Assembly: GCF_030209445.1 (NCBI RefSeq)
Contig: NZ_JARVSD010000004.1
Coordinates: 62,001 to 126,000 of the forward strand
Length of the DNA: 64,000 nt
Direction: 5' to 3'
From: Promicromonospora sp. MEB111
GTDB taxonomy: Bacteria; Actinomycetota; Actinomycetes; Actinomycetales; Cellulomonadaceae
The notes under the pieces were generated by a model, which saw nothing but the letters and a program-made list of their open reading frames with translations, was not told where the DNA came from and did not search any database. A program made the position numbers and the translations under genes. Shown one piece after another: positions 10,055 to 62,774 of the stretch (position 1 is the stretch's first letter; each line of letters starts with the position of its first letter).

Positions 10055-10075
10055 CACGCTCATCTCCTAGTTTCT

Positions 10076-45272: not shown

Positions 45273-45309
45273 GACGCCTCCATGTGCGGTGTCGAGAGAA
45301 CGAGCTCCG

Positions 45310-45342
45310 TTGCAACGTTTCAAACACGCGGTCGCCAGTGTA
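45310..45342 (-). promoter_or_regulatory. LacI-type operator and -10 element of the GH78 gene
   Basis: TTGCAACGTTTCAA (45310-45323) matches the palindrome TTGNAACGTTNCAA typical of LacI-family sites; one symmetric position differs. On the minus strand a TACACT -10-like element lies at 45342-45337, so the operator sits over the start of transcription, about 40 bases before ATG 45272. Confidence 0.6.
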
Positions 45343-45380
45343 TGGGCGACGAGCCGCCGCGGACCAGGGGGGGCGGCGGA

Positions 45381-46781: not shown

Positions 46782-46874
46782 CGGTCCCGGATCGTAGTCC
46801 CGCCACCTGGGGACCGCCCGCGCCCTGCTCAGGTATCGGTCCACCGGGGTCGCGTTCGCGAGCCCGGTGCCCGC

Positions 46875-49685
46875 TCAGGCCGTGGCCACCGCCCGGTCCA
46901 GGAGCTGTCCCCGGAGCTGCTTGCGCGAGACGATGCCGAGCTTCTGGAAGACCTTGCGCAGGTGCCACTCGACGGTGTGCGGGCTGATGAAGAGCTGCGT
47001 GCCGATCTGCGGGTTGGTCAGCCCCTCCCCGGCGAGCCGGGCGATGTGCGACTCCTGCGGGGTGAGCACCGTGTGCGGCTGGGGCAGGCGCCGGCGGACC
47101 GTCTCCCCGGCGGCCTGCAGACCGCGCCGGGCGCGCTCGGCGAACGCCTCCGCCCCCATCTCGCTGAGCATCTCGTACGCGACCCCGAGCTGCTCGCGGG
47201 CGTCCACGCGACGGTTGCCCAGACGCAGCCACTCGCCGTACAGCAGGTGGGCGCGGGCCAGCATCACCCGGACCTCGGTGCGGCCGAGCCGCTCGACCGA
47301 CTCCCGGTACGCCTCCTCCGCGTCGGCGCCCTCGCTCACCTGGGCGCGGGCGCTCGCGGCGACCCCGAGCGCCCAGTCGGTGCCGCTCTCCCGCGCCAGC
47401 ACGTCGAGCTGCCGCGCGGCCTCGGCGGCCCGGGCCGGGCGTCCGCTGCGGGCCGCCGCCTCCACGAGCTCGGTCAGCGACCGGTTGAAGGGGCCGCCCA
47501 GCGGCGCCGGGTGCTCGCAGCCGCGCTCGGCCGCTGCGTACGCCTCCTCGTAGCGGCCGAGCCCGTTGTAGAGCACGGCGCTCGCCCACCCGGTGGCGGT
47601 GGCCACCTTTCCCTCGCCGCGCAGGGCGGGGTTGCCTGCGACGGCGTCGATGGCCCGCCGGGTGGCGGCCTCCCGGCCCCGCCAGGGTTCGAGGACCAGC
47701 GCCGCGTACTGGGCGGGGAACCGGCTGCCGGTCACCTCGCCGACCGTCACGGCCTCGGCGAGCAGCGTGTCCGCGACGGCGAGCTCGCCGGCCAGCGCCC
47801 GGTTCGAGAGGAGCAGGTGCAGCGCGGTCGGCAGCACCGACAGCGTCCCGGTCTCGCGGGCCGCGTCGACCAGCCGCCGGGACAGGGTGGTCCAGGCGTC
47901 GAACTCCCAGGCGTTGTGGGCCACGCGGCACGCGAGGGGGAGCCAGTCCAGGCTCTCCTCGACGGAGCCCGCCTCGGCGCAGAAGGCGTCGAGGGCCAGC
48001 CGCACCATCGGCACGCCCGCCGCGGCGCCCTCGGTGGCCATCACCGCCGCGCCGTCGAGCAGCAGGTCCCCGCGGCCGGGCGGCGACCCTGCCGGCACCG
48101 CGAGCACCGACCGTGCGACCTCCGCGAGCCGGCCGCCGCCGGGCAGGTCCCCGGCCGTGACGGCGGCCTCGAACGCGTCCCGGTAGGCCGTACGGGCGAG
48201 TGCGGGGTCCAGCGGCTCCAGGTCCTCGGCCACCGCGACCAGGAGCGGCAGCGCGACGCCGGGGCTCGTGGACGCGAGGGCGACCTGGCCGCGCAGCAGG
48301 CCTGACCGGGCCCGTCCGAGCGCGTCGAGGGGGCCGAGCTCGGCGGCGCCCAGCAGCTCCAGCGCGGCGTCGAACCCGCCGGCCTGGAGCTTGGCCCGGG
48401 CCGCGGCCAGCGCCCGTGTGCCGCGGCGGCCGGGGTCGGGCGTGAGCTCGGTCGCCCGCTCCAGCAGCGCGGCCGACGCCGCGGCCCCGGCGCGGGCGCG
48501 CACCCGTTCGGCGTAGCGCTCCAGCTCGGCGGCCACGGACTCGTCGTGGCCGGCCAGCGCGTTGGCCAGGTGCCACGCCCGGCGCTCCGGGTCGGCCACG
48601 GGGTCGGTCGAGTCGGCCAGCGCGCGGTGTGCGTCCTGCCGGTCCTGCGGCGAGGCGCCCTGGTAGGTGGCCGAGCGCACCAGGGGATGGTTGAACAGGA
48701 CGCGTGTGCCCAGCGTGATCAGCCCGGCGCCGACGGCGGGGGCCGCGCTCGCCAGGTCGAGGCCCAACAGGTCCGCCGCCCGGTTCAGCAGGGTGACGTC
48801 GCCCATGGGCTCCGCCGCGGCGGTCAGCAGCAGCCGCCGGGCCGGGTCCGGGAGCGCCCGCACGCGCCGCAGCAGGCTCTGCTCGACGTCGCCGGCCGCC
48901 GGCCGCACGTCGGGCCGCCCGAACCCGCCGGCCAGCTCGGCGGGCGTGAGCCCCAGCGGGAGGACGAGCAGGGCCCGCGGGTTGCCCTGCGTCTCGGCGA
49001 CCATGCGGTCCCGGACCCGGTCGTCCAGCCGCCCCGGCGTGACCGACTCCAGCAGGGCGCGGGCCTCGCCGTCGCTCAGCCGCCCCACCTCGCGCTCCGG
49101 CAGCTCCGTCAGCTCGGCCCGCAGGTGGGGGTCGCGCACCGCGAGCACCAGCCCGACCGCCGCGACGGGCAGCCGCCGCGCGACGAAGGCGAGGGTGCGG
49201 GCCGAGACCTCGTCCAGCCACTGCGCGTCGTCGACCAGACAGACGAGCGGTCCCTTCTCCGCGGCGGCGGCCAGCAGGTTGAGCACCGCGAGGCCGACCA
49301 GGAAGCGGTCCGGCGTGTCGCCGGAGGTCAGGCCGAACGCCGTGGACAGTGCGTCGCGCTGCGGGCCGGGCAGGCGCAGCAGGTGGTCCAGGAACGGGGC
49401 GCACAGCCGGTGCAGGCCCCCGAAGGCCAGCTCCGACTCGGCCTCGACCCCCGTGGTGCGGGCGATCCGGCAGCCCGCCGCGCTGCCGTGGGCGTACTCC
49501 AGCAGCACCGTCTTGCCGATCCCGGCCGCGCCGCGCAGCACCAGGACCGCGCTGCGCCCGGCCTGGACCGTCGCGACGAGCTGGTCCAGGGCCTCGCACT
49601 CCGCCTGCCGGCCGTACAGCGGCAGCCGCCGGTCCCCGCTCGCGAGCAGCACCGTGGGGGCGGAGGGGATCGGTGAGGTGCTCAT
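46875..49685 (-). CDS. large LuxR-family ATPase regulator (LAL type)
   Basis: 936 residues, the size expected for LAL regulators. Walker A GAAGIGKT lies at residues 52-59, with a Walker B-like VCLVDDAQW about 75 residues later. A long middle of TPR-like helices follows. The C-terminus carries a LuxR helix-turn-helix: LTPQESHIARLAGEGLTNPQIGTQLFISPHTVEWHL. ATP-dependent signal sensing and transcription activation are the family role. I chose ATG 49685; the frame extends to 49859 but that part is antisense-like. It is divergent from the second ECF sigma gene with 164 bases between, so it may control it. Confidence 0.9.
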   Translation of the reverse strand: MSTSPIPSAPTVLLASGDRRLPLYGRQAECEALDQLVATVQAGRSAVLVLRGAAGIGKTVLLEYAHGSAAGCRIARTTGVEAESELAFGGLHRLCAPFLDHLLRLPGPQRDALSTAFGLTSGDTPDRFLVGLAVLNLLAAAAEKGPLVCLVDDAQWLDEVSARTLAFVARRLPVAAVGLVLAVRDPHLRAELTELPEREVGRLSDGEARALLESVTPGRLDDRVRDRMVAETQGNPRALLVLPLGLTPAELAGGFGRPDVRPAAGDVEQSLLRRVRALPDPARRLLLTAAAEPMGDVTLLNRAADLLGLDLASAAPAVGAGLITLGTRVLFNHPLVRSATYQGASPQDRQDAHRALADSTDPVADPERRAWHLANALAGHDESVAAELERYAERVRARAGAAASAALLERATELTPDPGRRGTRALAAARAKLQAGGFDAALELLGAAELGPLDALGRARSGLLRGQVALASTSPGVALPLLVAVAEDLEPLDPALARTAYRDAFEAAVTAGDLPGGGRLAEVARSVLAVPAGSPPGRGDLLLDGAAVMATEGAAAGVPMVRLALDAFCAEAGSVEESLDWLPLACRVAHNAWEFDAWTTLSRRLVDAARETGTLSVLPTALHLLLSNRALAGELAVADTLLAEAVTVGEVTGSRFPAQYAALVLEPWRGREAATRRAIDAVAGNPALRGEGKVATATGWASAVLYNGLGRYEEAYAAAERGCEHPAPLGGPFNRSLTELVEAAARSGRPARAAEAARQLDVLARESGTDWALGVAASARAQVSEGADAEEAYRESVERLGRTEVRVMLARAHLLYGEWLRLGNRRVDAREQLGVAYEMLSEMGAEAFAERARRGLQAAGETVRRRLPQPHTVLTPQESHIARLAGEGLTNPQIGTQLFISPHTVEWHLRKVFQKLGIVSRKQLRGQLLDRAVATA

Positions 49686-49849
49686 GTCACCGATCCAACT
49701 CGACGGTCGAATGCTTGACGAGGCAGAACGGCAGGCAGAAGTAGGGGGCGGTCTCTGCCCGGGGGCACGGCTCCCCGGGGTGCACCACGGACCCGACCAC
49801 GGAGTCACCGTGGCGCGGTCCGCCCGACGCCGCGCCGAGGGTGAACGGC

Positions 49850-50518
49850 ATGACGACACACGAGATCCCCACCGGTCCGGCCGAGCACGACGCCGCGCTC
49901 TCGGTCTTCCTCGCCCAGCGGACCCAGCTGGTCCGCATCGCCCGCCGGGTGACCGGCAACCCCGCGGAGGCCGACGACGTGGTCCAGGAGGCGTGGGTGC
50001 GCTGGCAGCGCACCGACCGCACGAAGGTCAGGAACCCCGCCGCCTTCCTCACCTCCACCACGACCAACCTGGCCCTCAACGTCATCCAGTCCGCCCGGTA
50101 CCGCCGGGAGTCCCTGCTGTCCACGGTGCCGGTGCCCGACGCCGCGCGCTCGGCCTCCGACCAGGACCCGGGCCTGCAGGCCGAGCAGACAGGGGCGGCC
50201 GAGGAGGCGTTCGCGCTGCTGCTGACGAGGCTGACGCCGGGGGAGCTGGCCGCCTACGTGCTGCGGCGCGGCTTCGACTACCCGTACGCCGACCTGGCGC
50301 GGCTGCTCCGGACCAGCGCCGCGAACTCCCGGCAGCTCGTCAGCCGCGCGCAGGCGCGCCTCGTCGGTGACCGCGCGCGCCCGGTTTCGCCCACGGCGTG
50401 CCGCCGCCTCGTCGCGGCGTTCCTGGACGCGGCCCGCAACGGTGACCTGGGCGACCTCGAGCGGCTGCTGGTGGCCGACGACGGCAGGTCCGCCACGCCG
50501 CCCGCGGCCGCGGCCTGA
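49850..50518 (+). CDS. ECF41-like sigma factor lacking the SnoaL domain
   Basis: 222 residues. Region 2 (about 25-95) includes TGNPAEADDVVQEAWVRWQR and region 4 (about 120-165) includes FDYPYADLARLLRTSAANSRQLVSRA. The following segment FLDAARNGDLGDLERLL aligns with the start of the SnoaL domain seen in the gene at 3221-4180, but the protein then ends in an Ala-rich tail. So it looks like an ECF41 sigma factor cut short at the regulatory domain. ATG 49850 was chosen over GTG 49841 for its GAGGG site. It is 13 bases upstream of an NmrA-like gene, probably its partner. Confidence 0.82.
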   Translation: MTTHEIPTGPAEHDAALSVFLAQRTQLVRIARRVTGNPAEADDVVQEAWVRWQRTDRTKVRNPAAFLTSTTTNLALNVIQSARYRRESLLSTVPVPDAARSASDQDPGLQAEQTGAAEEAFALLLTRLTPGELAAYVLRRGFDYPYADLARLLRTSAANSRQLVSRAQARLVGDRARPVSPTACRRLVAAFLDAARNGDLGDLERLLVADDGRSATPPAAAA

Positions 50519-50531
50519 GCTGGGGGGCGTC

Positions 50532-51128
50532 ATGAGGATCGTCGTCGTGGGCCGGACGCGCCTGATCTGCTCGAAGGTGGTCACCCGGCTCCGCGCGAGC
50601 GGGTGCGACGCGGCTCTGGCCACCCCGGGCACCGGCTGCGACGCGCTCGCCGACGAGGGGCTGACCGAGGCGGCGTCCGGCGCCGACGTGCTGGTGGACA
50701 TGTCGAGCGCGCCCTGGTCGGACGCCACGGACCTCGCCGCCCACTTCGTGACGTCGACGGGCAACCTGCTCGCCGCCGCCCGGCGCGCGGGCGTGGGCCA
50801 CTACGTCGCGCTCTCGGTCGTCGGCGGCGACCGCCTCCCCGGTAGCGACTACCTGCGGGCCCGGGCCGCCCAGGAGCGGCTCGTCGCCGCGTCCGGGCTC
50901 CGCTACTCGATCGTCCGCGCCACGCACCTGCTCGACTACGCGAGGGTCGTCCGGGAGCCCGCGGCCGCCGACACGCCCGTGCGGGTGCTGCTGGGCCACC
51001 TCCAGCCGATCGGCTCCGGGGAGATCGCCGGTGCGGTCGCGCGCCGGGCGGCCGGCGGCCCGGTCGACGGCGTCGTCGAGGCGGGCTGGCCGGAGCAGGC
51101 GGGGAGGAGCGCGGCGATCAGTGCCTGA
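50532..51128 (+). CDS. diverged NmrA-like protein paired with the short ECF41 sigma factor
   Basis: 198 residues. The fold and central segment (GVGHYVALSVVGGDRLPGSDYLRARAAQERLV) closely match the NmrA-like protein at 4379-5134. However, the glycine-rich loop has become GRTRLICSKV in place of GGTGTVGRHV, so two of the three binding glycines are missing. The C-terminal half is shorter by about 50 residues. It may have lost NAD(P) binding and serve as a sensor. GGGGGG precedes ATG 50532. It follows the sigma gene in one operon and overlaps the convergent STAND gene by 11 bases. Confidence 0.82.
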   Translation: MRIVVVGRTRLICSKVVTRLRASGCDAALATPGTGCDALADEGLTEAASGADVLVDMSSAPWSDATDLAAHFVTSTGNLLAAARRAGVGHYVALSVVGGDRLPGSDYLRARAAQERLVAASGLRYSIVRATHLLDYARVVREPAAADTPVRVLLGHLQPIGSGEIAGAVARRAAGGPVDGVVEAGWPEQAGRSAAISA

Positions 51129-53412
51129 CGTCGAGCGACGCCAGCTTCTCCTTCATCCGCCCGAGCATCGCGGGGATCCACGTACCGCGCTCCTCCGCAC
51201 GCTCGATGCCCTGGGTCAGGTGGTCGCGGGCCGCGTCGTTCGCGCCGTACCCGGCATAGGCGGTGCCCAGCACCCAGTGCATCAACGAGATCCACCAGCT
51301 GCTGCCCCGCTCGACGCTCTCGGCCAGGGCAGGCTCGGCCACCTCGACGGCCTCCTCGAAGCGCTGCGCGAAGCAGAGCGCGCCCGCCAGGCTCGCCTGG
51401 GCGAACATGCGCGCGTGCTGCACGGCGGCGGAGGCCGATCCCAGCTCGTCGATGCTCCGCAGCACGTCCCGGTAGGCCTCGATCGCCTCGTCCCGCCGGT
51501 CGAGGTCGACGAGCGTCGCAGCGAGGCCGTTGCTCGCCCAGTAGAAGGTCCCGTGGTAGCCGTCGGCCTCGGCCAGCTCGCGGCCCCGGGCGTACGCCTG
51601 GAGCGCCTGGTCGTGGTCCAGGTAGATCCGCCAGGCCTCGGCCGCATTGCAGAGGGCGTCCGCCTGCTCCCGGACGGCGCCGGCGCTCGCGGCGAGCTCG
51701 TGGACCGCCATTGCCTGCTCCGCCGCCTCCCGCGCCCGCGTACCTCCCTGGGCGGTGTCGGCAGTGGTGAACGCCCAGGCGTAGCGGTTCATGTGCCAGA
51801 GCTCGCGACGGCGGTCGGGGAGCCGTGCCGCCGCGGCTCGGGTCAGCCCGAACACCTCCAGCCACTCACGGCACCATTGCTGGTTGTCGCCCGCGTACCA
51901 GCGCAGCGCCTCGCCGAGCTCGGCCACCTGCTCGTCCCGCTCCGCGGCGGCCGCCAGCCGCAGGGCGGCGAGCCACGTCTCCTGCTCCGCCTCCAGCCAC
52001 ACCCGAGCCTCCGTGGGCGTCGACAGCGCGACCAGGCCCGTGCGGGGTGGCGGCGGCGCGTCGTCGTCGGCCTCGAAGACCCGCCCGGCCACGGTCGCGG
52101 TCTCCAGCAGCCAGTCGGTCATCCGCCGCTCGGCCGCCGCCCGGTCCCCGGCGGTCTCCTCCTCGCGCAGGCGCTGACCCGCGTACAGCCGGATCAGGTC
52201 GTGGAACCGGTAGCGGTCGACACCCTCGTGCTGCAGCAGGCCCAGCTCGACCAGGTGGTCGAGCTCGTCCTCGGCGTCGTACGGGTCTGCCTCGGTCAGC
52301 ACCGCGGCGACCGGCACCCCGAGGACCACGGCGGGTACGAGCGCCAGCCGCCGGAAGCACCTCTTGTCCCGCTCCGACAGCGCCAGGTAGGACAGGGCGA
52401 AGGCCGCCTCCACCCCGACGTCCCCGACCGCCAGGTTCGCGAGCCGGCGGTCCTCGTCCGACAGGCGCTCGGCGAGGTGTCGCATCGTCCAGCCGGGTCG
52501 GGAGGCCAGCCGGGTGCCGGCGATCCGCAGCGCCAGCGGCAGGTGCCCGCACAGCTGTGCCACCCGCACCGCCTCCACCGAGTCGCCAGGGGCGGCCTCC
52601 GTACGGACGTCCCCGGAGACGGCGCGCAACAGCTCCGCGGACTCCTCCCGCGACAAGGGCGCGAGGGCGATCCTCGCGACGTCGTCCAGTCCGCCCAGGG
52701 CGCGACGGCTGGTCACGATCGTCATGCCCGCGCCCTCGCCGGGCAGCAGCGGCCGCACCTGGGCCTCGTCCGCGGCGTTGTCCAGCACGACGAGGAAGCG
52801 CCGTTCGGAGAGGGCGGCGCGGAGCTGTCCCGCTCGTTCCTGCTCGTCGTCGGCGATCGCCCGCGGGTCCAGGCCGACGGCGAGCAGCAGCCTGCGCAGC
52901 GCCTCCGTGGCCGCCATGGGCTCGGGGTCGACACCGCGCAGGTCCACGTAGACCTGCCCGTCGGGAAACTCCTCGGCCAGCAGCTCGGCTGCCCGCACCG
53001 CGCACGACGTCTTGCCCAGCCCCGCCGCTCCGTGCACCACCGCGACCGGCACGGGACCGTCCGCGGAAGCCGTCCGCGCCAGGTCGCACAGCGCCCCCAG
53101 CTCGGGCGCTCTGCCCACGAAGTCGGTGAGGCCGCGCGGCAGCCCGTACGAGCTCGGGCGTCGCGACGGCTGATCCGCCGTGCGCGGCCGGCCCGCCCGG
53201 GCGGCGTCGGCGAGCTCGGCCTGCTGCTCGGCGTCGAGCCCCAGCGCCTCGGCGAGGGCCTGGACCGTGCGCCGTTGCGGACCGCGGCTGACACCGCGCT
53301 CCATGTCGCCGATCGCTCGCACGCTCACGCCCGAGGTGTGGGAGAGCTCCTCGATCGTGAGCTGTGCGGCCTGGCGCAGGCTGCGCAGGTGCGGCCCGAA
53401 CGGACCGGTCAT
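51118..53412 (-). CDS. XRE-HTH / NB-ARC / TPR regulator, third of tandem triplet
   Basis: 764 residues. XRE-type helix-turn-helix (about 8-60: LTIEELSHTSGVSVRAIGDMERG), then a DFVGR box (97-101) starting the NB-ARC domain with Walker A GAAGLGKT (Lys134) and Walker B-like FLVVLDNA. Near residue 400 is HDLIRLYA, equivalent to the MHD switch motif. The rest is TPR-like helices (about 470-764). This is the STAND signal-ATPase layout: a ligand or protein partner triggers ATP-driven opening and DNA binding. ATG 53412 overlaps the stop of the preceding gene by 4 bases. It is last in the three-gene operon and ends 11 bases inside the convergent NmrA-like gene. Confidence 0.88.
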   Translation of the reverse strand: MTGPFGPHLRSLRQAAQLTIEELSHTSGVSVRAIGDMERGVSRGPQRRTVQALAEALGLDAEQQAELADAARAGRPRTADQPSRRPSSYGLPRGLTDFVGRAPELGALCDLARTASADGPVPVAVVHGAAGLGKTSCAVRAAELLAEEFPDGQVYVDLRGVDPEPMAATEALRRLLLAVGLDPRAIADDEQERAGQLRAALSERRFLVVLDNAADEAQVRPLLPGEGAGMTIVTSRRALGGLDDVARIALAPLSREESAELLRAVSGDVRTEAAPGDSVEAVRVAQLCGHLPLALRIAGTRLASRPGWTMRHLAERLSDEDRRLANLAVGDVGVEAAFALSYLALSERDKRCFRRLALVPAVVLGVPVAAVLTEADPYDAEDELDHLVELGLLQHEGVDRYRFHDLIRLYAGQRLREEETAGDRAAAERRMTDWLLETATVAGRVFEADDDAPPPPRTGLVALSTPTEARVWLEAEQETWLAALRLAAAAERDEQVAELGEALRWYAGDNQQWCREWLEVFGLTRAAAARLPDRRRELWHMNRYAWAFTTADTAQGGTRAREAAEQAMAVHELAASAGAVREQADALCNAAEAWRIYLDHDQALQAYARGRELAEADGYHGTFYWASNGLAATLVDLDRRDEAIEAYRDVLRSIDELGSASAAVQHARMFAQASLAGALCFAQRFEEAVEVAEPALAESVERGSSWWISLMHWVLGTAYAGYGANDAARDHLTQGIERAEERGTWIPAMLGRMKEKLASLDVRH

Positions 53413-55730
53413 CCGGCCTCCTTTGCGTCGAGGTCCGCCAGCATGGACTTCGCCCGCGCGAGCGTGCTGGGCTTCGGCTTCCATGCCCCGTGGTCCTCCA
53501 CCAGCTCGATCATCCGCACCAGGTGCTGGCGGGCCTCGCGGTCCGCACCCAGCTCGGCATGTGCCCGGCCGAGGGTCCAGTGCAGGAACGGCGTCCAGCC
53601 GCTGGCCAGCTGGACGAGCTCGGCCAGGGCGGGTTCCCCGACCTCGACGACCTCCCTGAAGCGACCTGCCGCGAGGAGCGCCTCGGTCAGCCGGAAGGCG
53701 GCGCCCGCCCGCCCGTGCTGCGCCGCGGCCGAGAGGTCTGGAACGCCGTCGGTGGACCTCAGCAGGGCGCGGTAGATGTCGACGGCCTCGTCGTGCCTGC
53801 CGAGGATGTCCAGGGCAGTTCCGATCCCGGACGTGGCCCAGGAGTAGATCTGGTGGTAGCCCGAGGCCTGGGCGAGCTCGAGCCCGCGCGAGTACGCATC
53901 CAACATCTGCTCGGCGTCGCCGACGTGCAGCCAGCCCTCACCCGCGTTGCAGAGCGCGTCGGCCTGCTCCTGGAGCGCTCCGGCGTGTTCGGCGAGCCGG
54001 TACGCCTCCATGGCGTACTCGACACGCTCCCGCAGGACGGACTCGCCGGACTGCCGCTGGATGGCGACGGTGAGGAGCGCCGAGGCGTGGCGGTTCATGT
54101 GCCAGAGCTCGCGACGGCGGTCGGGCAGCCGTGCGGCCGCCGCCAGCGTCAGGCCGAACACTTCCAGCCAGTCGCTCGACCACTGGTGCGCGTCGGCGGC
54201 GAACCAGCGCATCGACTCGCCGAGCCCGGCCACCAGCTCGTCGCGCTCCGAGGCGGCCGCGAGTCGCAGGGCGGCGAGCCAGGTGTCCTTCTCGGCCTGC
54301 AGCCAGGCCTTCGCTTCGTCCGGCGTGGTGAGCGGGACCAGGCGGTCGGGGTGGGGTGGCACGTCGCCGTCCGCCTCGAACACCCGGCCGGCCGTCGTCG
54401 CGGTCTCCAGCAGCCAGCTGACCATCCGCCGCTCGGCGGTGGCGCGGGCGTCGGCGGTCTCCTCCTCGTGCAGCCGCCGGTTCGCGTACAGGCGGATCAG
54501 GTCGTGGAAGCGGTAGCGACCGGCCCCCTCGGGCTGCAGGAGCCCCAGGTCGACCAGCTCGTCGAGCTGGTCCTCGGCGTCGTCGAGGTCGGCCTGGATG
54601 AGCACCGCCACGATCGGTGCGCCGAAGTCCACCGCGGGGACGAGGGCCAGCCGCCGGAAGCACTCCCTGGCCTGATCGGGCAGCGCGAGGTAGGACAGCG
54701 AGAAGGATGCCTCCACCCCGATGTCGCCTACGGCGAGGTTCGCGAGCCGGCGGTCCTCGTCCGACAGCCGTTCGGCGAGGTAGTGCATGGTCCACCCGGG
54801 CCGGGACGCCAGGCGGGTTCCCGCGATCCGCAGCGCCAGCGGCAGGTGCCCGCACAACCGCGCCACGCGCGCGACGTCCTCGTCCTCGGGTTCCACCTCC
54901 TCGGTGCCGGCCGCCACTTCGCGGCCGCCCCCGGACACGGTCCGCAGCAGCTCCGCCGACTCCCGTGACGAGAGCGGCGCGATCGGGATCCTCGTGACCC
55001 CGTCCAGACCGGCCAGCGTGCGGCGGCTGGTCACGATCGCCATGCCCGGACCGTCGCCAGGCAGCAGGAGCCGTACCTGGGCCTCGTCGGCGGCGTTGTC
55101 GAGCACGACGAGGCAGCGCCGCTCCGCCAGGATGTCGCGGAGCTGATCTGCTCGTTCCTGCTCGTCCTCGGCGACCGCCCGTGGTTCCAGGCCGACGGCG
55201 AGCAGGAGCCGGCGCAGCGCCTCCGCCGTCGGCATGGGCTCGGGGTCTACCCCGCGCAGGTCGACGTAGACCTGCCCGTCCGGGAACGCCTCGCGCAGCA
55301 GCTCAGCCGCCCGCACCACGCACGCCGTCTTGCCCACGCCACCCGGTCCGTGCACCACCACGACAGGTGTCCGGTCGTCCCCGAAGGCGGCGCGCCCGTG
55401 CTCGCCCAGCAGCTCCAGCTCCGCCGTCCGGCCCACGAAGTGGGCCGGGCCGCGCGGCAGCCCGTACCCGCGCGGAGGCTCCGGCACCTGGTCGGCTGCC
55501 CGCGGCCGGCCCGCCCGGGCGGCGTCGGCGAGCTCGGCCTGCTGCTCGGTGTCGAGCCCCAGCGCCTCGGCGAGGGCCTGGACCGTGCGCCGTTGCGGAC
55601 CGCGGCTGACGCCGCGCTCCATGTCGCCGATGGCGCGCACGCTCACGCCCGAGGTGTGGGAGAGCTCCTCGATCGTCAGGCCCGCGGACTGCCGCAGGCT
55701 CCGCAGGTACGGTCCGAAGGGGGCGGTCAT
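53409..55730 (-). CDS. XRE-HTH / NB-ARC / TPR regulator, second of tandem triplet
   Basis: 773 residues, the same layout as its neighbours. Over the first 80 residues it differs from the third gene at only 6 positions. Walker A is GPGGVGKT with Lys134 at the same residue number, and Walker B-like CLVVLDNAADEAQVR follows. The motif HDLIRLYA is present. The TPR tail is diverged from those of the other two genes, mainly after residue 560. The start overlaps the first gene's stop (ATGA, 55727-55730), and its own stop overlaps the next start the same way. Translational coupling suggests the three proteins are made in equal amounts, perhaps to form mixed complexes. Confidence 0.88.
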   Translation of the reverse strand: MTAPFGPYLRSLRQSAGLTIEELSHTSGVSVRAIGDMERGVSRGPQRRTVQALAEALGLDTEQQAELADAARAGRPRAADQVPEPPRGYGLPRGPAHFVGRTAELELLGEHGRAAFGDDRTPVVVVHGPGGVGKTACVVRAAELLREAFPDGQVYVDLRGVDPEPMPTAEALRRLLLAVGLEPRAVAEDEQERADQLRDILAERRCLVVLDNAADEAQVRLLLPGDGPGMAIVTSRRTLAGLDGVTRIPIAPLSSRESAELLRTVSGGGREVAAGTEEVEPEDEDVARVARLCGHLPLALRIAGTRLASRPGWTMHYLAERLSDEDRRLANLAVGDIGVEASFSLSYLALPDQARECFRRLALVPAVDFGAPIVAVLIQADLDDAEDQLDELVDLGLLQPEGAGRYRFHDLIRLYANRRLHEEETADARATAERRMVSWLLETATTAGRVFEADGDVPPHPDRLVPLTTPDEAKAWLQAEKDTWLAALRLAAASERDELVAGLGESMRWFAADAHQWSSDWLEVFGLTLAAAARLPDRRRELWHMNRHASALLTVAIQRQSGESVLRERVEYAMEAYRLAEHAGALQEQADALCNAGEGWLHVGDAEQMLDAYSRGLELAQASGYHQIYSWATSGIGTALDILGRHDEAVDIYRALLRSTDGVPDLSAAAQHGRAGAAFRLTEALLAAGRFREVVEVGEPALAELVQLASGWTPFLHWTLGRAHAELGADREARQHLVRMIELVEDHGAWKPKPSTLARAKSMLADLDAKEAG

Positions 55731-58045
55731 CCGATCTCCTCAGGGGCTCCGGCCTCATCGTCGAGAGCTGCGATCAGGGCATTCACCTCGTCGACGAACG
55801 CGGGCCGCGGCTGCCACCTTCCCCGGGCCTCTCCCCGCCCGATCGCCAGAGTGAGGTGCTCGCGGGCCTTGTCGTTCGCGCCGAGCCCGAGATACGCCCG
55901 GCCGACCGCCCGGTGCGTCAGCGGTGCCCAGTTGTTGCCCTCCTCGAGGAGGGCCGCCGCGGACGTCCTCGCGATCTCGACGACGTCGCCGTAGCGCCCC
56001 GCGTCGGCGAGGAGCGTGGACAAGCGGGCCAAGGCGAACCATCGGGTGTTCTCGGCCGCGGCCGTCGGTGCCGGGAGCTCCTCGATCGTCCTGAGCATGG
56101 AGCGGAAGGCCTTGAGGGCGTCGTCGTACCTGCCGGCCTGGGCGAGCCCCACCACGAGGCCGCCACTCGCCCAGAAGTAGGTGCTCTGGTCGCCGGCGGT
56201 CTCGGCCAGCTCTCGCCCGCGGGTGTAGGCCCAGAGCGACCGGTCGTCGTCGTGCGCGAGTCGCCAGGCCTCGGCCGCGTTGCAGACCGCCTCCGCCTGT
56301 TCCCTGACCGCCCCGAGGCCCTCGGCGAGCTGGTAGGCCTCCATCGCCTGCTCCGCGGCCTCCCGCAACGCCTTGTCGTCACGTCGCTGCGCGGCGACGG
56401 TGAGGCGTGCCCAGACATAACGGATCGTGTGCCAGAGCTCCCCGCGGCGGTCGGGCAGCCGCGCGGCGGCGGAGCGGGTGAGCCCGAACACCTCCAGCCA
56501 GTCGGTCGCCCACACCTGGGTCTCGTTGGCGATCCAGTTCATCGCCTCACCGAACCGGGCCACCTGCGCGTCCCGCCCTGCGACAGCCGCGAGCCGCAGC
56601 GCAGCCAGCCAGGACTCCTTCTCGACCAGCAGCCAGACCCGGGCTTCCTCCGGCGAGGTGAACCGGACGTGACCCTCGTCGCCCGCCGGTGGGGATTCGC
56701 CGTCGAACCACCGGCCGGCCGCCGTCGCGGTCTCCAGCAGCCAGTCCGTCATACGGCGCTCGGCCGTCGCCCGGGCCGCGTCGGACTCCTCCTCGTGCAG
56801 GCGCTGGTTCGCGTACAGCCGGATCAGGTCGTGAAAGCGGTAACGGTCCGTGCCCTCGTGCTGGAGGAGGCCCAGCTCGACCAGCTCGTCGAGCTGGTCC
56901 TCGGCGTCGTAGCGGTCGGTCTCGGTCAGCACCGCGGCGATCGGTGCCCCGAAGTCGACGGCGGGGACGAGCGCCAGCCGCCGGAAGCACTCCTTGGCCT
57001 GCTCGGGCAGCGCCACGTAGGACAGCGCGAACGCCGCCTCCACCCCGACGTCGCCCACCGCGAGGTTCGCCAGCCGGCGGTCCTCGTCCGACAGGCGCTC
57101 GGCCAGGTGCCGCATGGTCCACTCCGGCTGGGAAGCCAGGCGGGTGCCGGCGATCCGCAGGGCAAGCGGCAGGCGTCCGCACAGCTCGGACACCCGCGCC
57201 GTCTCCGCTGCCGTCTCCGTCACCGCGTTCCCGTCGGCGGTCCGGTTGGCGAGGGCCTCCAACAGCTCCGCGGACTCCTGCGGTGAGAACGGCGCCAGCG
57301 GGACCCGGGTCACTCCCTCCAGCCCGGCCAGCGTGCGGCGGCTGGTCACGATCACCATGCCCGCGCCGTGCGCAGGCAGCAGGGGCCGCACCTGGGCCTC
57401 GTCCGCGGCGTTGTCCAGCAGCACCAGGGACCGCCGGTCCGCCAGGATGGCCCTGAGCTGACCTGCGCGTTCGTGCTGGTCCTCGGCGATCGCGCGGGCA
57501 TCCAGCCCCGACGCCAGCAGCAGTCGGCGCAGCGCCTCCGTGGTCGCCATCGGCTCGGGGTCGACGCCGCGCAGGTCCACGTAGAGCCCGCCGTCGGGGA
57601 ACCTCTCGTGCAACAGCTCGGCCGCCCGCACCGCGCACGCCGTCTTGCCCAGTCCCGCCGCGCCGTGCACCACGACGACCGGGGTGGGGCCGTCCGCGGA
57701 GGCGGTCCGTGCCCGTTCGTCCAGCAGCTCCAGCTCCGCCGTCCGGCCCACGAAGTCGCCGAGGCTGCGCGGCAGCGCGTTCGAACCTGGCTGCTCGGGT
57801 GCGGGGTCGGCTGCCCGCGGCCGTCCGGCCCTGGCGGTGTCGGCGAGTTCTGCTCGCTGCTCGTCGTCGAGCCCCAGCGCGTCGGCCAGTGCCTCGACGG
57901 TGCGGCGCTGCGGGCCGCGGCTGACGCCGCGCTCCATGTCGCCGATGGCACGCACGCTCACGCCCGAGGCGTGCGAGAGCTCCTCGATCGTCAGTCCGGT
58001 GGACTGCCGCAGGCCGCGCAGGAGCGGGCCGAACGAACTGGCCAT
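55727..58045 (-). CDS. XRE-HTH / NB-ARC / TPR regulator, first of tandem triplet
   Basis: 772 residues and the promoter-proximal member. It has the same HTH (residues 21-50 differ from the second gene at one position), Walker A GAAGLGKT (Lys134), and HDLIRLYA motif. Its last third has its own sequence, for example ALPEQAKECFRRLALVPAVDFGAP before the TPR region and ENTRWFALARLSTLLADAGRYGD within it. GGGAGG lies before ATG 58045. It is the founder or the latest copy of a local triplication; direction cannot be told from the sequence. What each senses is unknown. Confidence 0.88.
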   Translation of the reverse strand: MASSFGPLLRGLRQSTGLTIEELSHASGVSVRAIGDMERGVSRGPQRRTVEALADALGLDDEQRAELADTARAGRPRAADPAPEQPGSNALPRSLGDFVGRTAELELLDERARTASADGPTPVVVVHGAAGLGKTACAVRAAELLHERFPDGGLYVDLRGVDPEPMATTEALRRLLLASGLDARAIAEDQHERAGQLRAILADRRSLVLLDNAADEAQVRPLLPAHGAGMVIVTSRRTLAGLEGVTRVPLAPFSPQESAELLEALANRTADGNAVTETAAETARVSELCGRLPLALRIAGTRLASQPEWTMRHLAERLSDEDRRLANLAVGDVGVEAAFALSYVALPEQAKECFRRLALVPAVDFGAPIAAVLTETDRYDAEDQLDELVELGLLQHEGTDRYRFHDLIRLYANQRLHEEESDAARATAERRMTDWLLETATAAGRWFDGESPPAGDEGHVRFTSPEEARVWLLVEKESWLAALRLAAVAGRDAQVARFGEAMNWIANETQVWATDWLEVFGLTRSAAARLPDRRGELWHTIRYVWARLTVAAQRRDDKALREAAEQAMEAYQLAEGLGAVREQAEAVCNAAEAWRLAHDDDRSLWAYTRGRELAETAGDQSTYFWASGGLVVGLAQAGRYDDALKAFRSMLRTIEELPAPTAAAENTRWFALARLSTLLADAGRYGDVVEIARTSAAALLEEGNNWAPLTHRAVGRAYLGLGANDKAREHLTLAIGRGEARGRWQPRPAFVDEVNALIAALDDEAGAPEEIG

Positions 58046-58076
58046 TCAGCCTCCCTCGGGGTGTCCGGTCTGAGGT

Positions 58077-58105
58077 CATGATGGCCCGATCGGCATCGTT
58101 GACAA
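58077..58105 (-). promoter_or_regulatory. possible promoter of the STAND triplet
   Basis: In the 134-base gap before the triplet, the minus strand has TTGTCA (58105-58100) followed after 17 bases by a weak ATCATG (58082-58077). The -10 is poor, so this is only a suggestion. A perfect CCACGTGG palindrome lies further upstream at about 58114. All three triplet genes depend on whatever starts here. Confidence 0.3.
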
Positions 58106-58179
58106 CCTGCCGTCCACGTGGCGATCGACACCCGTGGTGAAACATCGGCGTGCCCCGCGCAAGTCACCCGTGGGCGGCG

Positions 58180-58626
58180 TCAGTCGTCGCGCCGCGGCCG
58201 CGACGAGCGCAGCTTCTTGGTGGCCGACCGCTGCTTCTTGGCCGTCAGCCGCCGCTCCTGCGACCCGCGGGTCGCGCGGGTGGCGCGGCGGCTCCGCGGG
58301 CCGGGCGCCAGTCCGTCGTCGACGACGGCGGCCAGGCGCGTGGCGGCGGCGTCGCGGTTGCGGCGCTGCTCCCGGTGCTCCGAGGCGACGACGGTGAGGA
58401 CGCCGTCGACCAGGCGGCCCGCGAGTCGCTCCAGGAGGCGCTGGCGCTGCGTGTCGCTCAGCACGGCGGACCGACCCACGTCCCAGGACAGCTCGACGCG
58501 CGAGTCGGTGGTGTTCACGCCCTGACCGCCCGGGCCGGAGGAGCGGGAGAACCGCTCGGTGAGCTCGGCGCGGGGGATGGTCAGCGCGGGACTGACGGCC
58601 AGGCCGGGGCGGACAGGGGAGGGCAT
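58180..58626 (-). CDS. arfB: peptidyl-tRNA hydrolase ArfB (ribosome rescue)
   Basis: 148 residues, close to the 140 of E. coli ArfB (YaeJ). The catalytic Gly-Gly-Gln lies at residues 33-35 in SSGPGGQGVN. The body LSDTQRQRLLERLAGRL is the family helix, and the Lys/Arg-rich C-terminal tail (AKKQRSATKKLRSSRPRR) is the part that enters the empty mRNA channel of stalled ribosomes. It frees stalled peptides by hydrolysing peptidyl-tRNA. I chose ATG 58626; the frame extends upstream to 58755 but that part has no family match. Confidence 0.93.
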   Translation of the reverse strand: MPSPVRPGLAVSPALTIPRAELTERFSRSSGPGGQGVNTTDSRVELSWDVGRSAVLSDTQRQRLLERLAGRLVDGVLTVVASEHREQRRNRDAAATRLAAVVDDGLAPGPRSRRATRATRGSQERRLTAKKQRSATKKLRSSRPRRDD

Positions 58627-58758
58627 GTGCCCATGGTCTCGCACGCGGGGGCGTGGCCCGCGCTCCTCCCGGGTCGACGACGGCGTGACCAGGGCCTCCG
58701 CGCTGCCATACTCAGCGGCGTCATTGTCGGACCCGATGATCTGCGAGGGCATCACCCC

Positions 58759-59520
58759 ATGCGTTTCAGCTCACCGCCTGGCTGGCCCACGCCCCCGGAG
58801 GACTGGTCGCCGGCAGCCGGCTGGCGGCCCCAGCCCGACTGGCCGGCAGCCCCCGAGGACTGGTCGTTCTGGACCGACGACGAGGGACGCCCCGTCGAGG
58901 GGCCGTGGGTCCCGGAGCACCACGGCGCCTCGGAGTTCGACACGCCGAGCAGCCTTGCCCTCTGGGCGTTCACGGCCGTGCAGGTCGTCCTGGTCCTCGT
59001 CGACATCGTGCTCCTGAGGTCTGGCACGTCGTCGACCGGAGGGATCCTGGCCGTGGGTGGTGTCCTCAACCTGGCCTGTTTCGTCGCCGACGTGACCCTC
59101 CTGCGCCAGGCGGGTCACCGCGTGCCCGTCTACCTCTACGTCTGCGGAGTGCTGCTCGTGCCGCTCTACCTCATCTTCCGGATCCGGCTGACGAGGACGA
59201 GCTGGTGGCCCCTGGTGGGGTGGATCGGGGTGATCGTCGCTTCCGTCCTGGCGACGCCGCTCGTGGGATACGCGGGCGGCGTCGAGCTGGAGCCCACCGA
59301 TGTCGAGTCCTCGATCGAGGGTTCGTACTCGACCGGGGACGGCACCTCGCTCTACGAGAGCAGCATGCCGGTCCAGGTGAGCTGCCCGGACCCGCTCGTC
59401 GTCCGGGTCGGCGAGACCTTCGACTGCGAGACCGGGGTGGTCGGCGAGGCGCCCGAGACCGTCACCGTCACCCTGGAGTCGTGGCTGGGGGAGATGTCGT
59501 GGCGGAGGCCGACGAGGTGA
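58759..59520 (+). CDS. membrane protein with DUF4333-like outer domain
   Basis: 253 residues. The N-terminal Trp/Pro-rich segment PPGWPTPPEDWSPAAGWRPQPDW resembles the DUF2510 type of cytoplasmic head. About four hydrophobic helices span residues about 70-175. The outer end holds SCPDPLVVRVGETFDCET, typical of the DUF4333 domain with its Cys pair. The organisation suggests an envelope protein of unknown role, common in actinobacteria. ATG 58759 was chosen as the first codon of the Trp-rich head. Confidence 0.8.
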   Translation: MRFSSPPGWPTPPEDWSPAAGWRPQPDWPAAPEDWSFWTDDEGRPVEGPWVPEHHGASEFDTPSSLALWAFTAVQVVLVLVDIVLLRSGTSSTGGILAVGGVLNLACFVADVTLLRQAGHRVPVYLYVCGVLLVPLYLIFRIRLTRTSWWPLVGWIGVIVASVLATPLVGYAGGVELEPTDVESSIEGSYSTGDGTSLYESSMPVQVSCPDPLVVRVGETFDCETGVVGEAPETVTVTLESWLGEMSWRRPTR

Positions 59521-59557
59521 CGAGTACCCAACGACCAGCGGGGCGTCCTCGTCCGCG

Positions 59558-60097
59558 CTAGATACCGACCGACCCGTCGATCGCCTCGCGGAGCAGGTCC
59601 GCGTGGCCCAGGTGCCGGGCGTACTCCTGGATCAGGTGGAGCAGGATCCACCGCAGCGTGGCCTCCTGGCCGTCCCAGAACTTCTCCTGCGCGATCGTGT
59701 CGAGGTCTGCCGTCTCGGCGACGATCTGCTCCGTGGTGCGCTGGGCCTCGTCGAGCCAGGCCAGCAGCTGCTCGGGCGAGTCGTCCGCGGCGGTGCTGAA
59801 GGTCCAGTCGTTCCGTCCCTCCTGCTCCTTGTACTGGGCGTACCAGGTGGGCGTCTCGACCGTCCCCGCGAACGTCACGTTGACCCAGGCCGCCTCGATG
59901 ACGGCGAGGTGCTTGAGCAGACCGCCGAGCGACAGGGTGCTCGGCGCATGCCGGTAGGCCAGCAGCGTGCTGCTCAGCCCCGAGACCTTCCAGCGCAGCG
60001 TGTCGCGCTGGAACGCGAGGATCCCGAGGAGGGTCTGCTTCTCGTCGGCGGTGAACGGGATGTCGAAGCGGTCCGCGGGGTCGGTGATCGTCGTCAT
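59558..60097 (-). CDS. DinB/DUF664-family protein
   Basis: 179 residues with the four-helix-bundle pattern of the DinB/YfiT superfamily. HLAVIEAAWVN and EYARHLGHADLLREAIDG supply the His residues that bind metal in active members. DUF664 proteins of this size are often thiol-dependent transferases that use mycothiol or bacillithiol in actinobacteria and firmicutes. ATG 60097 is clear. It is divergent from the NUDIX gene with 39 bases between, and convergent with the DUF4333-like gene. Confidence 0.88.
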   Translation of the reverse strand: MTTITDPADRFDIPFTADEKQTLLGILAFQRDTLRWKVSGLSSTLLAYRHAPSTLSLGGLLKHLAVIEAAWVNVTFAGTVETPTWYAQYKEQEGRNDWTFSTAADDSPEQLLAWLDEAQRTTEQIVAETADLDTIAQEKFWDGQEATLRWILLHLIQEYARHLGHADLLREAIDGSVGI

Positions 60098-60136
60098 CCT
60101 GGAACCGTAGCGACGTCAGGAAGCAGACTGGACCCC

Positions 60137-60634
60137 ATGGCGACGACGAGCGCGGGACTCCTGCCCTTCCGGCGGCTGCCCGACGGAGGTGTCGAGGTGC
60201 TGCTCGGCCACATGGGCGGACCGTTCTGGGCCCGCAAGGATGCGGGATCGTGGTCGCTGCTCAAGGGCGAGCTCGAACCCGGTGAGGAGCCCCACGCGGC
60301 GGCCCTGCGCGAGGCGGGGGAGGAGCTCGGGCTGGAGCTGCCGCCGTCGTCGGGCCCGGACCTCGCGCTCGGGGAGGTGCGGCAGCGCGCCGGCAAGGTG
60401 GTCCACGCCTGGGCGCGCGAGTGGCCCGATCCCGGACCCGACCTGTCCGTGATCAGCAGCAACACGGTCGAGATCGAGTGGCCGCCGCGGTCCGGCAAGC
60501 GCCTTGAGATCCCCGAGATCGACCGCGTCGCCTGGTTCGCGCCCGACGACGCGCGGCGCGTCGTCGTCAGCGCGCAGGCGGCGTTCGTCGACCGGTTGGT
60601 GGGGGCGCTCGCGGGCGAGACGGGCACGGGGTGA
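60137..60634 (+). CDS. NUDIX hydrolase
   Basis: 165 residues. The NUDIX box is complete: GELEPGEEPHAAALREAGEELGL carries the G-x5-E-x7-RE-x2-EE-x-G pattern that binds Mg2+ and hydrolyses a nucleoside diphosphate linked to another group. The N-terminus (SAGLLPFRR) and the GGPFWARKDAGSWSLLKGE segment match the group related to diadenosine polyphosphate hydrolases and MutT. ATG 60137 fits the family start. A hairpin terminator follows. The specific nucleotide substrate is unknown. Confidence 0.92.
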   Translation: MATTSAGLLPFRRLPDGGVEVLLGHMGGPFWARKDAGSWSLLKGELEPGEEPHAAALREAGEELGLELPPSSGPDLALGEVRQRAGKVVHAWAREWPDPGPDLSVISSNTVEIEWPPRSGKRLEIPEIDRVAWFAPDDARRVVVSAQAAFVDRLVGALAGETGTG

Positions 60635-60665
60635 GGCGGGCCCCGGCACCGCGCCGGGACCCGCC
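60635..60665. terminator. hairpin after the NUDIX gene
   Basis: Two 13-base arms (60635-60647 and 60653-60665) pair with one C-A mismatch around a 5-base loop. It begins right after the NUDIX TGA and lies before the end of the convergent small gene at 60687. Confidence 0.6.
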
Positions 60666-60686
60666 TCTCCTCAGCTCAACCGGGGA

Positions 60687-60878
60687 TCAGGGTTCGATCG
60701 TGGGGACGAAGTTGTCCAGGAGGAACTGGCCCTCCTCGCCCGGGGGCAGCTCGCCCATGAACCGGCTGACGACGCCGGTGCTCTCCGACTCGACGAAGAC
60801 CTGGAAGTCGATCGTCTCGACGCCCGGGGCGCCCCAGTGCTCGGTCTGCGCGGCCATGAGCACGGCCTTTCCGGACAT
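60687..60878 (-). CDS. small protein of unknown function
   Basis: 63 residues: MSGKAVLMAAQTEHWG leads into a soluble-looking chain ending VVSRFMGELPPGEEGQFLLD. Codons are strongly GC-ending and the residue mix is protein-like, so I think it is translated. It starts 39 bases after the end of the metallophosphoesterase on the same strand and may be co-transcribed with it. No family recognised. It could also be the remnant of a longer gene. Confidence 0.45.
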   Translation of the reverse strand: MSGKAVLMAAQTEHWGAPGVETIDFQVFVESESTGVVSRFMGELPPGEEGQFLLDNFVPTIEP

Positions 60879-60917
60879 CAGTGCCCTGGTGCGTGCTGAC
60901 GACGGTCCGGGCGCGCC

Positions 60918-62774
60918 TCAGCGGCTCCGCGCCGTGAGGAACTGGTCCGGCCGCAGCGCGCGCGACACGATCCGGGTGTCGCCGATCCAGCCGTAGAACC
61001 CCTGGCCGTACGTCTCCGCCGACTGCGTGCCGCCGATCGCGAACGGCTTGCCGAGCGTCGAGATGCCGCGCGACTCCTCGGCGGCGTTGCGCACGATCTT
61101 CGAGCCGTCCACGTACATCACCGTGTGCCGGCCGTCGTTGACGAGCGCGACGTGCATCCAGCGGCCCACCGGCACGGCGTGGCTCCAGGACGTCGGGTCG
61201 GCGTCGACCGGCACGGGGTAGACGACGAACTGCAGGAAGCGCTCGCCGGACAGGTTCAGGCTGCACGTCGGCTCGTCGTCGGACCAGCCGCTGTGCTTGC
61301 CGGCGTCGCCCGCGCGGCCCTCCCAGCTGAGGATGCCCATCCAGGAGTGGTCGCCCTCGAAGGGCTCCGGCAGCTTGAGGAACGTCTCGATCGTGTAGCC
61401 GGACTCGAACGTCGCGCTGTTGACCGGCGCGTTCGGGCCGGTGCGCAGCACGGCGCCCCGGTCGGGCCCCTTGCCGCCGTCGAACCGCAGGCTCGCCCGG
61501 GCCGGCTGGGCGTCGTGGTGCTCGGCCGACCAGGTCAGCGCCTCCGGGGCGCTGGAGTGCAGGAGCTCGGAGGTCAGGTCGTTGCCGTTGCCCGTGAGGT
61601 CGCGGGCGACGGTGCCGGGCGCGACCGGGGCGCCGTCCGACCCCGCGGCGGCGAGGCCGGCGGCGTCGAACCGCCAGTACGCGACCGTGCCGCGCGGCAT
61701 CACTGCCGACGGCGGCAGCGGCGCGGGCAGCACCGGCGGCGCGAACGCGGCGAAGCGCTCGTCGAAGTCGATCTCGACGGTGAACCGGTCCACGTCGCCG
61801 CTGAGCTCGACGTGCTCCGCCTCCAGGGGCGTGGGGTCGTTCTTGGCGAGCAGCCAGGGCGAGAACGTCTCGACGTCGATCACGCCGCGCACCAGGTCGA
61901 AGCTGTAGTACCGCACCATGCCGGCGCCGCCGTAGTAGCGGTCCTGGTAGTTGGTGATGTGCAGGTGCACGGGGTTGCCCGCGTCGTTCGTGAGCGTGGT
62001 GCGGCCGGACGGCCAGTAGTGCCCGCCGAGCGCGAGGAAGATCTGGTCGTTGCCCTTGATGAGACGGTCCCACAGGCGCCGGCCGTTGTCGGAGAGGTGG
62101 GCCAGGCCGTCGTCCTCGGCCCAGACGAGGTCGTGGGTGGTGAGGATCGCGGGCAGCTCGCGGTGCTCGTCCAGCACGCCCTGGGTCCAGGCGAGCCCGG
62201 CGTCGGACAGGCGCCAGTCCAGCGCCAGGACCAGCCACTCCCGCCCGCCGCCGCGGACCACGTGGTAGCTGTTGTAGCCGTCGGGGGAGGAGCCGCCGTA
62301 GGTCTCCATCCGGGAGAAGCGCTGCGGCCCGAACGTACGCAGGTACGGGGAGTCGCCGCGCTGGTCGTCACCGCTGACGTCGTGGTTGCCGGCCAGCACG
62401 CTGTACGGCAGCCGGCCGGCGGCGTCGAACGCGCGGCTCGCCGCGCGCATCTCGGTGGCCGTGCCGTGCTCCGTCACGTCGCCGAGCTGGGTCATGAACA
62501 CGATGTTGTCCTGCGCGCGTTCGCGCACCAGGTGCCGCAGCGTCGCGCGGACGGGCTCGGCGTCGGAGCCGCCGTCGTCCAGCAGGTACTGCGTGTCGGG
62601 CAGGACGGCGATCGTGAACCGCGCGGCGGCCGCGTCGGGGCGGCCGCCGTTCGAGGAGGCCGACGACGGCGCGGCCGCCGCCGACGTCGTGCCGGCGGCC
62701 GCGGCGGCCGCCGAGAGGACCGGGACGGCCGCGGCCGCCTGGAGCAGGGAGCGGCGAGAGAGCTTGTTTTCCAC
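60918..62774 (-). CDS. Tat-exported metallophosphoesterase with LamG-like domain
   Basis: 618 residues. A twin-Arg signal (NKLSRRSLLQAAA) leads into a calcineurin-like phosphoesterase: IAVLPDTQYL, QLGDVTEHG, LAGNHD and GGHYWPSG carry the metal-binding Asp, His and Asn residues. From about residue 390, LRFDGGKGPDRGAV and FESGYTIETFLKLPEP mark a LamG/concanavalin-like domain, probably for binding glycans or the cell surface. GTG 62774 places the twin-Arg near the start; upstream frame sequence is not protein-like. It would cut phosphodiester or phosphomonoester bonds outside the cell. Confidence 0.88.
   Translation of the reverse strand: MENKLSRRSLLQAAAAVPVLSAAAAAAGTTSAAAAPSSASSNGGRPDAAAARFTIAVLPDTQYLLDDGGSDAEPVRATLRHLVRERAQDNIVFMTQLGDVTEHGTATEMRAASRAFDAAGRLPYSVLAGNHDVSGDDQRGDSPYLRTFGPQRFSRMETYGGSSPDGYNSYHVVRGGGREWLVLALDWRLSDAGLAWTQGVLDEHRELPAILTTHDLVWAEDDGLAHLSDNGRRLWDRLIKGNDQIFLALGGHYWPSGRTTLTNDAGNPVHLHITNYQDRYYGGAGMVRYYSFDLVRGVIDVETFSPWLLAKNDPTPLEAEHVELSGDVDRFTVEIDFDERFAAFAPPVLPAPLPPSAVMPRGTVAYWRFDAAGLAAAGSDGAPVAPGTVARDLTGNGNDLTSELLHSSAPEALTWSAEHHDAQPARASLRFDGGKGPDRGAVLRTGPNAPVNSATFESGYTIETFLKLPEPFEGDHSWMGILSWEGRAGDAGKHSGWSDDEPTCSLNLSGERFLQFVVYPVPVDADPTSWSHAVPVGRWMHVALVNDGRHTVMYVDGSKIVRNAAEESRGISTLGKPFAIGGTQSAETYGQGFYGWIGDTRIVSRALRPDQFLTARSR

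Follow-up and report, generated by a model that had tools for sequence, protein, structure and literature searches.

Three genes encoding XRE-NB-ARC-TPR proteins (A, B and C) lie in tandem in the window, the whole 64,000-nucleotide stretch of DNA that was analyzed, and our best reading is that a STAND transcription activator situated in a gene cluster has undergone a lineage-specific expansion in tandem; the triplet is not a recurrent system. Our computations revealed the anatomy of the triplet, the clade to which it belongs, the accessory block that carries it, a family operator, an association between recognition helix and operator, a conserved site before a LAL/LuxR gene and a contrast in substitution rates along the proteins. 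With slightly better than even confidence, we propose that A, B and C form a three-input switch, in which three sensors would act through one operator on one second-tier regulator.

Anatomy of the triplet and its accessory block

The earlier note had described three head-to-tail paralogues of 764-773 residues with 4-base overlaps, and the open frames agree with this description, with ATGA at both the A/B (55727-55730) and the B/C (53409-53412) junctions. B and C are full-length paralogues of A, with 64% and 66% identity to it, respectively. Each protein carries an XRE-type HTH at its N-terminus (HTH_31 and HTH_3 above the Pfam cut-off) and an NB-ARC domain (PF00931, 32.7-44.7 bits against a curated cut-off of 23.5), and a C-terminal LuxR HTH (GerE) is absent from all three by Pfam. 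TPR models scored below the Pfam cut-off. A structure model contains paired helices from about residue 510 to 765, mostly with pLDDT of 52-95; its mean pLDDT is 56 and its NB-ARC region is mostly below 50, too poor for interfaces. The Walker A Lys is indeed residue 134 in A, B and C, as previously noted, within the motif GxxGxGKT, and the alignment shows K134/T135, D211, T234-S235-R236, L292-P293-L294 and H405-D406 to be invariant, these being the usual positions of the ATPase motifs.

Shine-Dalgarno-like stretches are found upstream of B (GAGGAG) and of C (AAAGGAGG). Because each downstream gene thus has its own ribosome site, the equal production suggested in the earlier note does not follow. 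A start for C 24 codons earlier (53484), given in the open-reading-frame list, was rejected, as the alignment and the ribosome site favor 53412. The interval 49600-58300 contains one sigma-70-like match, just before A (shuffles, mean 0.0, sd 0.2), in a stretch that is partly conserved in the genome of a second species, G004; thus, A, B and C are probably carried on a single transcript. No terminator-like site was found in 49600-58300, a weak negative that says little because shuffles yield only 0.7.

Table 1. Positions of the triplet, its candidate signals and the neighboring genes in the window
Feature	Position	Strand	Basis
Accessory block with LAL, ECF, NmrA, C, B and A; ~11.3 kb	about 46805..58178	.	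Flanks compared in five congeners
LAL/LuxR regulator of 936 aa, putative target of the triplet	46875..49685	-	Pfam AAA_16 and GerE above cut-off
-10-like TTGGAT of the LAL gene, 22 bp from operator, 7 nt before ATG	49693..49698	-	Motif match
Proposed operator AGGCAGAACGGCAGGCAGAAG, two half-sites 12 bp apart	49721..49741	+	Best match of the window; half-sites identical in G004
ECF sigma factor, SigJ-like, divergent from LAL, operator about 110 bp upstream	49850..50518	+	Pfam Sigma70_r2, r4_2
NAD(P)H-binding (NmrA-like) gene, end overlaps end of C	50532..51128	+	Pfam NAD_binding_10 above cut-off
Gene C, XRE-NB-ARC-TPR, 764 aa	51118..53412	-	Open frame; overlap with B; AAAGGAGG ribosome site; Pfam
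Gene B, XRE-NB-ARC-TPR, 773 aa	53409..55730	-	Open frame; overlap with A; GAGGAG ribosome site; Pfam
Gene A, XRE-NB-ARC-TPR, 772 aa, first gene of the operon	55727..58045	-	Open frame; Pfam HTH_31, HTH_3 and NB-ARC above cut-off
Sigma-70-like promoter match before A, TTGTCA, 16 nt, CATCAT	58078..58105	-	Consensus match only

The block is accessory in the five congeners compared, since its flanks adjoin in two and enclose other cargo in three. Specifically, the gene ending at 46781 directly adjoins the release-factor-like gene at 58180 in G011 and G001, and about 5.5-7 kb of other cargo lies between the flanking genes in G010, G009 and G007. The chromosomal site (46781-58180; L068-L072) is variable, with a FAD-oxidase-like gene on one side and the release-factor-like gene on the other. 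No tRNA was found in 44000-61000, and there are no RiPP genes among the called genes of the block. The variable site, the fast-changing repeat ends and the combination of NB-ARC with repeats, which is the layout of an NLR, would suit an NLR-like anti-phage defence cluster. However, Pfam detects no effector domain in A, B or C, PADLOC matches are mainly weak ones to HTH models (best E about 1e-5) and the operator evidence described below indicates a transcription factor, which makes defence a very improbable role.

In G004 the block is represented by the LAL, the ECF, the start of the NmrA gene, A and a second start that overlaps the stop of A by 4 bases (GTGA). This genome is a draft with gaps inside the repeats and shows at least two copies; only two can be counted because a fragment on its contig C77 could be the middle of the second. 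Separate trees, of the kind that the earlier note had called for, each group A, B and C with the G004 sequences in a single clade (support of 0.999 for residues 112-447 and 1.000 for the C-terminal part). The note had named chance duplication as the other outcome, but full-length paralogues in tandem, whose 4-base overlap is seen again in a second species, are not due to chance. In 13 genomes of the genus, including that of the window (G000), matches outside the G000 block and G004 were at most 42% identical, at E <= 1e-60.

The earlier note called single regulators of this kind common in actinobacteria, and XRE-NB-ARC-TPR proteins recur across the actinobacterial genomes scanned. With G000 included in each count, matches were obtained in 21 of 221 family genomes (E <= 1e-90), 5 of 396 order genomes (1e-100) and, in the class, 25 of 78 (1e-45) and 19 of 394 genomes (1e-85). 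A scan of genome contigs with B returned one distant match only, and relatives were present in 114 plasmid records, all below 60% identity. The three-gene cluster does not emerge as a recurrent unit: the only comparable array is that of G004, with two copies, and the other fetched relatives are single except for a tandem pair in L111 (5534-10387; two XRE-STAND genes 174 bp apart and non-overlapping). Because no more than 2-4 candidates per genome were scored in the large scans, arrays could have been missed. By eye, the neighbors of the L111 pair are AraC-like, MFS-like and hydrolase-like genes. SARP-type NB-ARC/TPR pairs in L074, L078 and L079 were set aside as arrays of another kind; the L078 pair, from the genome of the window, consists of two SARP-like genes in the same orientation with about 1 kb between them (4622-7333 and 8378-11185). 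A module of three genes (72 aa, 186 aa and an NB-ARC/TPR gene) occurs as two tandem copies in L073 (3096-9221).

A family operator and its association with the recognition helix

We compared 46 loci: the window, G004, 37 loci chosen by protein similarity and 7 chosen by operator, many of them from the same genus and non-independent. An α/β-hydrolase gene lies within 5 kb in 30 of the 37 loci chosen by similarity, in 0 of 10 control loci and in 1 of 3 further loci picked for likeness or nearness to LAL. Gene calls beyond the window came from a rough script that missed some genes. The hydrolases are of three types, c1 (Abhydrolase_6), c2 (Abhydrolase_3) and c3 (Abhydrolase_1), none of which occurs in the window. 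Because c2 is of the family to which Aes also belongs, we speculate that the hydrolases might act back on the STAND protein. NmrA genes lie near relatives in four loci of genus g6 and, together with an ECF gene, in L142; LAL genes do so in L075, L115 and probably L112. The genome G593 has a hydrolase-LAL-NmrA-ECF cluster. Separately, 899 bases of the LAL gene of the window match DNA of G593, a genome from another family, at 80%.

With a model derived from eight sites, additional sites were detected in loci outside its building set (L081, L089, L090, L096, L097 and L098; 22-34 bits). The pattern ACCANGAAGRANNCANGCAGRANT, with at most one mismatch, matched 26 of 221 family genomes, once in each, and a reversed control matched 0 of 221. 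All 26 genomes have an XRE-STAND gene within about 2 kb of the match, plus a hydrolase. The single-regulator genomes from the family scan account for 19 of these (19 of 20 have the operator, the exception being G187), and the seven remaining matches are likewise all near an XRE-STAND gene and a hydrolase, although the former is fragmentary in G109, where a contig ends. The first gene past the site was scored on one strand, that opposite to GMAGRA; it is a hydrolase in 17 of 23 loci, a LAL in 2 (the window and G004) and, in the other four, a hydrolase missed by the gene caller (L087) or another gene (L113, L114 and L125). Seven of the 23 loci have an exact TTGGAT at a distance of 22-23 bp from the operator, and others have near variants. 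In our reading, the usual single protein would sense a signal through its TPR end, switch by means of its NB-ARC ATPase and bind a direct repeat of two half-sites upstream of an α/β-hydrolase promoter.

The recognition helix of the XRE domain covaries with this site. SDR helices go with GA at positions 3 and 4 of the first half-site in 21 of 21 loci, and SVR helices with GC in 10 of 10 (8 of 8 without the window and G004). Loci with an SAR helix are mixed, with one GA and three GC (n=4). These counts cover 35 of the 46 loci. Eleven were left out: L076, L084, L111, L117, L118 and L120-L124 have no accepted site, the best matches in L117 and L122 (15.3 and 22.4 bits) having been rejected, and L125 has a 29.4-bit site with no hydrolase after it on the expected strand. 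Weaker sites, of 19.4-21.7 bits, are those of L112, L114, L116 and L119. As judged from these pairings, the association is not just one of species descent, since both helix types occur within genera g4 and g6, and it links the XRE domain with the operator. The genome of the window also has a single regulator, on contig C22, which keeps an SDR helix with a GAAG site; thus, the C22 and triplet circuits look insulated from each other.

The candidate operator before the LAL gene

A, B and C have a common recognition helix, SVRAIGDMERG, and both N-termini in G004 also read SVR. The site before the LAL gene was first spotted by eye in intergenic sequence, ahead of an unbiased rescan with models that allow a 12-bp spacing and exclude the window and the loci found through it. 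With the eight-locus model the site scored 26.7 bits, compared to 13.9 for the next match, at most 20.8 in ten background loci and at most 16.2 in twelve shuffles. With a model of SVR-type sites it scored 31.1 bits, compared to 19.1, 16.1 and 15.8, respectively. A lag-11, 26-base model missed it (best in the window 11.8, at 19449; best in the block 7.3); its spacing is 12 bp, whereas the family sites identified with the pattern have 11 bp. The two 9-base half-sites are unchanged in G004, two spacer bases differ and the surrounding stretch is 75% alike. Among the matches listed, the lag-12 pattern at zero mismatches occurs once in G000 and once in G004, both times at the LAL gene, and was not found in G007 or G009. 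At up to two mismatches it is unspecific (38 matches in G000 versus 9 for the control, with similar numbers in triplet-free genomes).

The LAL gene is the first gene past the operator on the target strand, and the operator ends 35 bp before its ATG. The position of TTGGAT relative to the ATG makes a leaderless LAL transcript possible; the sigma-70 scan did not recognize this hexamer. The G+C content of the LAL gene is 77.9% versus 73.7-74.8% for A, B and C, and this gene has perhaps moved horizontally. Autoregulation of the triplet through the same operator was considered and rejected, as neither the lag-11 nor the 12-bp models found a match in 58046-58180. The ECF protein matched SigX4 and SigJ models to about 192 of 281 and 199 of 293 positions, below cut-off, and is without the C-terminal SnoaL-like part present in a relative in L089 (10462-11349). 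The NmrA-like protein reads GRTRLICS versus GGTGLIGS in the L089 relative, with a similar change in G004 (GATRPICA).

The LAL operator could instead be bound by a SARP-type regulator or by the LAL itself, the triplet having another target. Its half-site resembles the PimR heptamer CGGCAAG, likewise arranged as direct repeats ahead of a LuxR gene (passages of PMC5930380), and could thus be recognized by a SARP-type protein; the genome of the window has SARP-like genes (L078). Yet in the 26 family genomes the operator always occurs with an XRE-STAND gene and its variable base goes with the XRE recognition helix, and we regard another binder as distinctly improbable.

Divergence of the sensor ends and comparison with known systems

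Relative to the G004 orthologue of A, residues 112-447 are 81% (A), 74% (B) and 77% (C) identical, and the C-terminal half 73%, 47% and 53%. Simple Nei-Gojobori estimates, made in a G+C-rich genome, give dN/dS values among the three paralogues of 0.21-0.23 for the HTH, 0.35-0.46 for the nucleotide-binding part, 0.26-0.35 for the ARC/WHD, 0.48-0.67 for residues 441-600 and 0.86-1.10 for the TPR region. Thus, output and switch are conserved, and the sensor end drifts or diversifies. Gene conversion was rejected as the source of this contrast, as a long run of silent matches occurs only in the B/C HTH (11 sites, p = 0.002). Selection is the better cause because dS is similar outside that segment (0.32-0.63 among A, B and C, except 0.20 in the B/C HTH). 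Between A and its G004 orthologue the TPR dN/dS is 0.55, so the sensor of A is under some constraint. A TPR value near 1 may reflect relaxed constraint rather than new ligands.

The conserved HTH and NB-ARC, set beside a diverging C-terminal half, fit several sensors, an idea put forward in the earlier note; that the triplet is no recurrent unit speaks against the interpretation given there. In the three-input switch, each of A, B and C would stay inactive until a signal reaches its TPR end; ATP loading, oligomerization and binding of the direct repeat by A, B or C would follow, by analogy with MalT and AfsR. All three should bind the same operator, here the one preceding the LAL gene, because recognition helix and ATPase motifs are kept in all of them. 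Since the TPR ends have diverged, different inputs could each activate the LAL, as an OR gate in a cascade. We infer binding, activation rather than repression, the leaderless LAL transcript and distinct ligands. A tentative extension, for which we see a modest chance, likens the triplet to an NLR-cluster-like receptor array of co-expressed STAND activators with one DNA output and an interchangeable ATPase core, whose TPRs would evolve to different ligands, which might co-assemble on one operator, and whose three signals the LAL promoter would integrate.

The same contrast of conserved NB-ARC and HTH with divergent TPR, and the overlapping genes on a probable single transcript, would also suit mixed rings, in which conserved NB-ARC faces would let the three proteins join in one hetero-oligomer that integrates several signals, with AND-like or hierarchical behavior. 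Separate ribosome sites enforce no ratio, however, and we consider such rings unlikely. Recent redundant duplication, with extra copies drifting under relaxed TPR constraint and gaining no new inputs, would account for the paralogue TPR dN/dS near 1 and for an array in just two species among the genomes scanned. We doubt it, given three open frames with intact ATPase motifs, the orthologue TPR value of 0.55 and the 4-base overlap kept in G004.

A literature search of open-licence papers found no XRE-NB-ARC-TPR protein with an assigned operator or target. The family operator, its helix association and its usual place before α/β-hydrolase genes offer a testable DNA target for these proteins, and the family-wide operator is a more general gain than the triplet. 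The triplet is a natural experiment with three sensors and one output on one promoter, suited to studying changes of signal in a STAND receptor and the possible mixing of paralogues within one oligomer.

The closest known systems are the single XRE-NB-ARC-TPR regulators, such as that on C22 and L112 in G860, which share domain order, family and direct-repeat operator type with the triplet, but have one gene per locus and the operator before a hydrolase, whereas that of the triplet precedes the LAL. HaaT and the FxSxx-COOH TPR proteins of NCBIfam are related in their NB-ARC/TPR region; A, B and C score 232-248 bits against a HaaT (NF041717) cut-off of 1125, and 69-75 bits against an FxSxx-COOH TPR cut-off of 300. 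MalT has a DNA-binding domain different from that of A, B and C, and is of a different family. As portrayed in parts of PMC10427625, it is a STAND transcription activator that forms oligomers driven by nucleotide and ligand and is inhibited by partner proteins including Aes. It thus resembles the proposed mode of A, B and C, as an activator switched by nucleotide and ligand that works as an oligomer, and differs in being a single gene whose inhibitors MalY, MalK and Aes are separate proteins (PMC10427625, in part).

AfsR is homologous in its NB-ARC region (PDB sequence match 8jke, E 7.7e-54, residues 62-491) but carries a SARP DNA-binding domain where A, B and C carry an XRE domain. Against the AfsR profile (NF053617) they score 256-274 bits, in the NB-ARC part only, versus an equivalog cut-off of 1430. 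Sections of PMC10936776 describe AfsR as a large SARP whose NOD and TPR modulate the DNA-binding domain and which uses direct-repeat operators, with 8 bp from the 3′ repeat to the -10 element versus 22-23 bp here. PimR, in passages of PMC5930380, is a large ATPase regulator that activates the LuxR-type gene pimM via direct repeats. The PimR-pimM cascade (SARP-LAL to PAS-LuxR) thereby resembles the proposed cascade from triplet to LAL, but PimR has a SARP domain, is encoded by one gene, uses 7-bp repeats with 4-bp spacers and targets a PAS-LuxR rather than a LAL regulator (PMC5930380, same passages).
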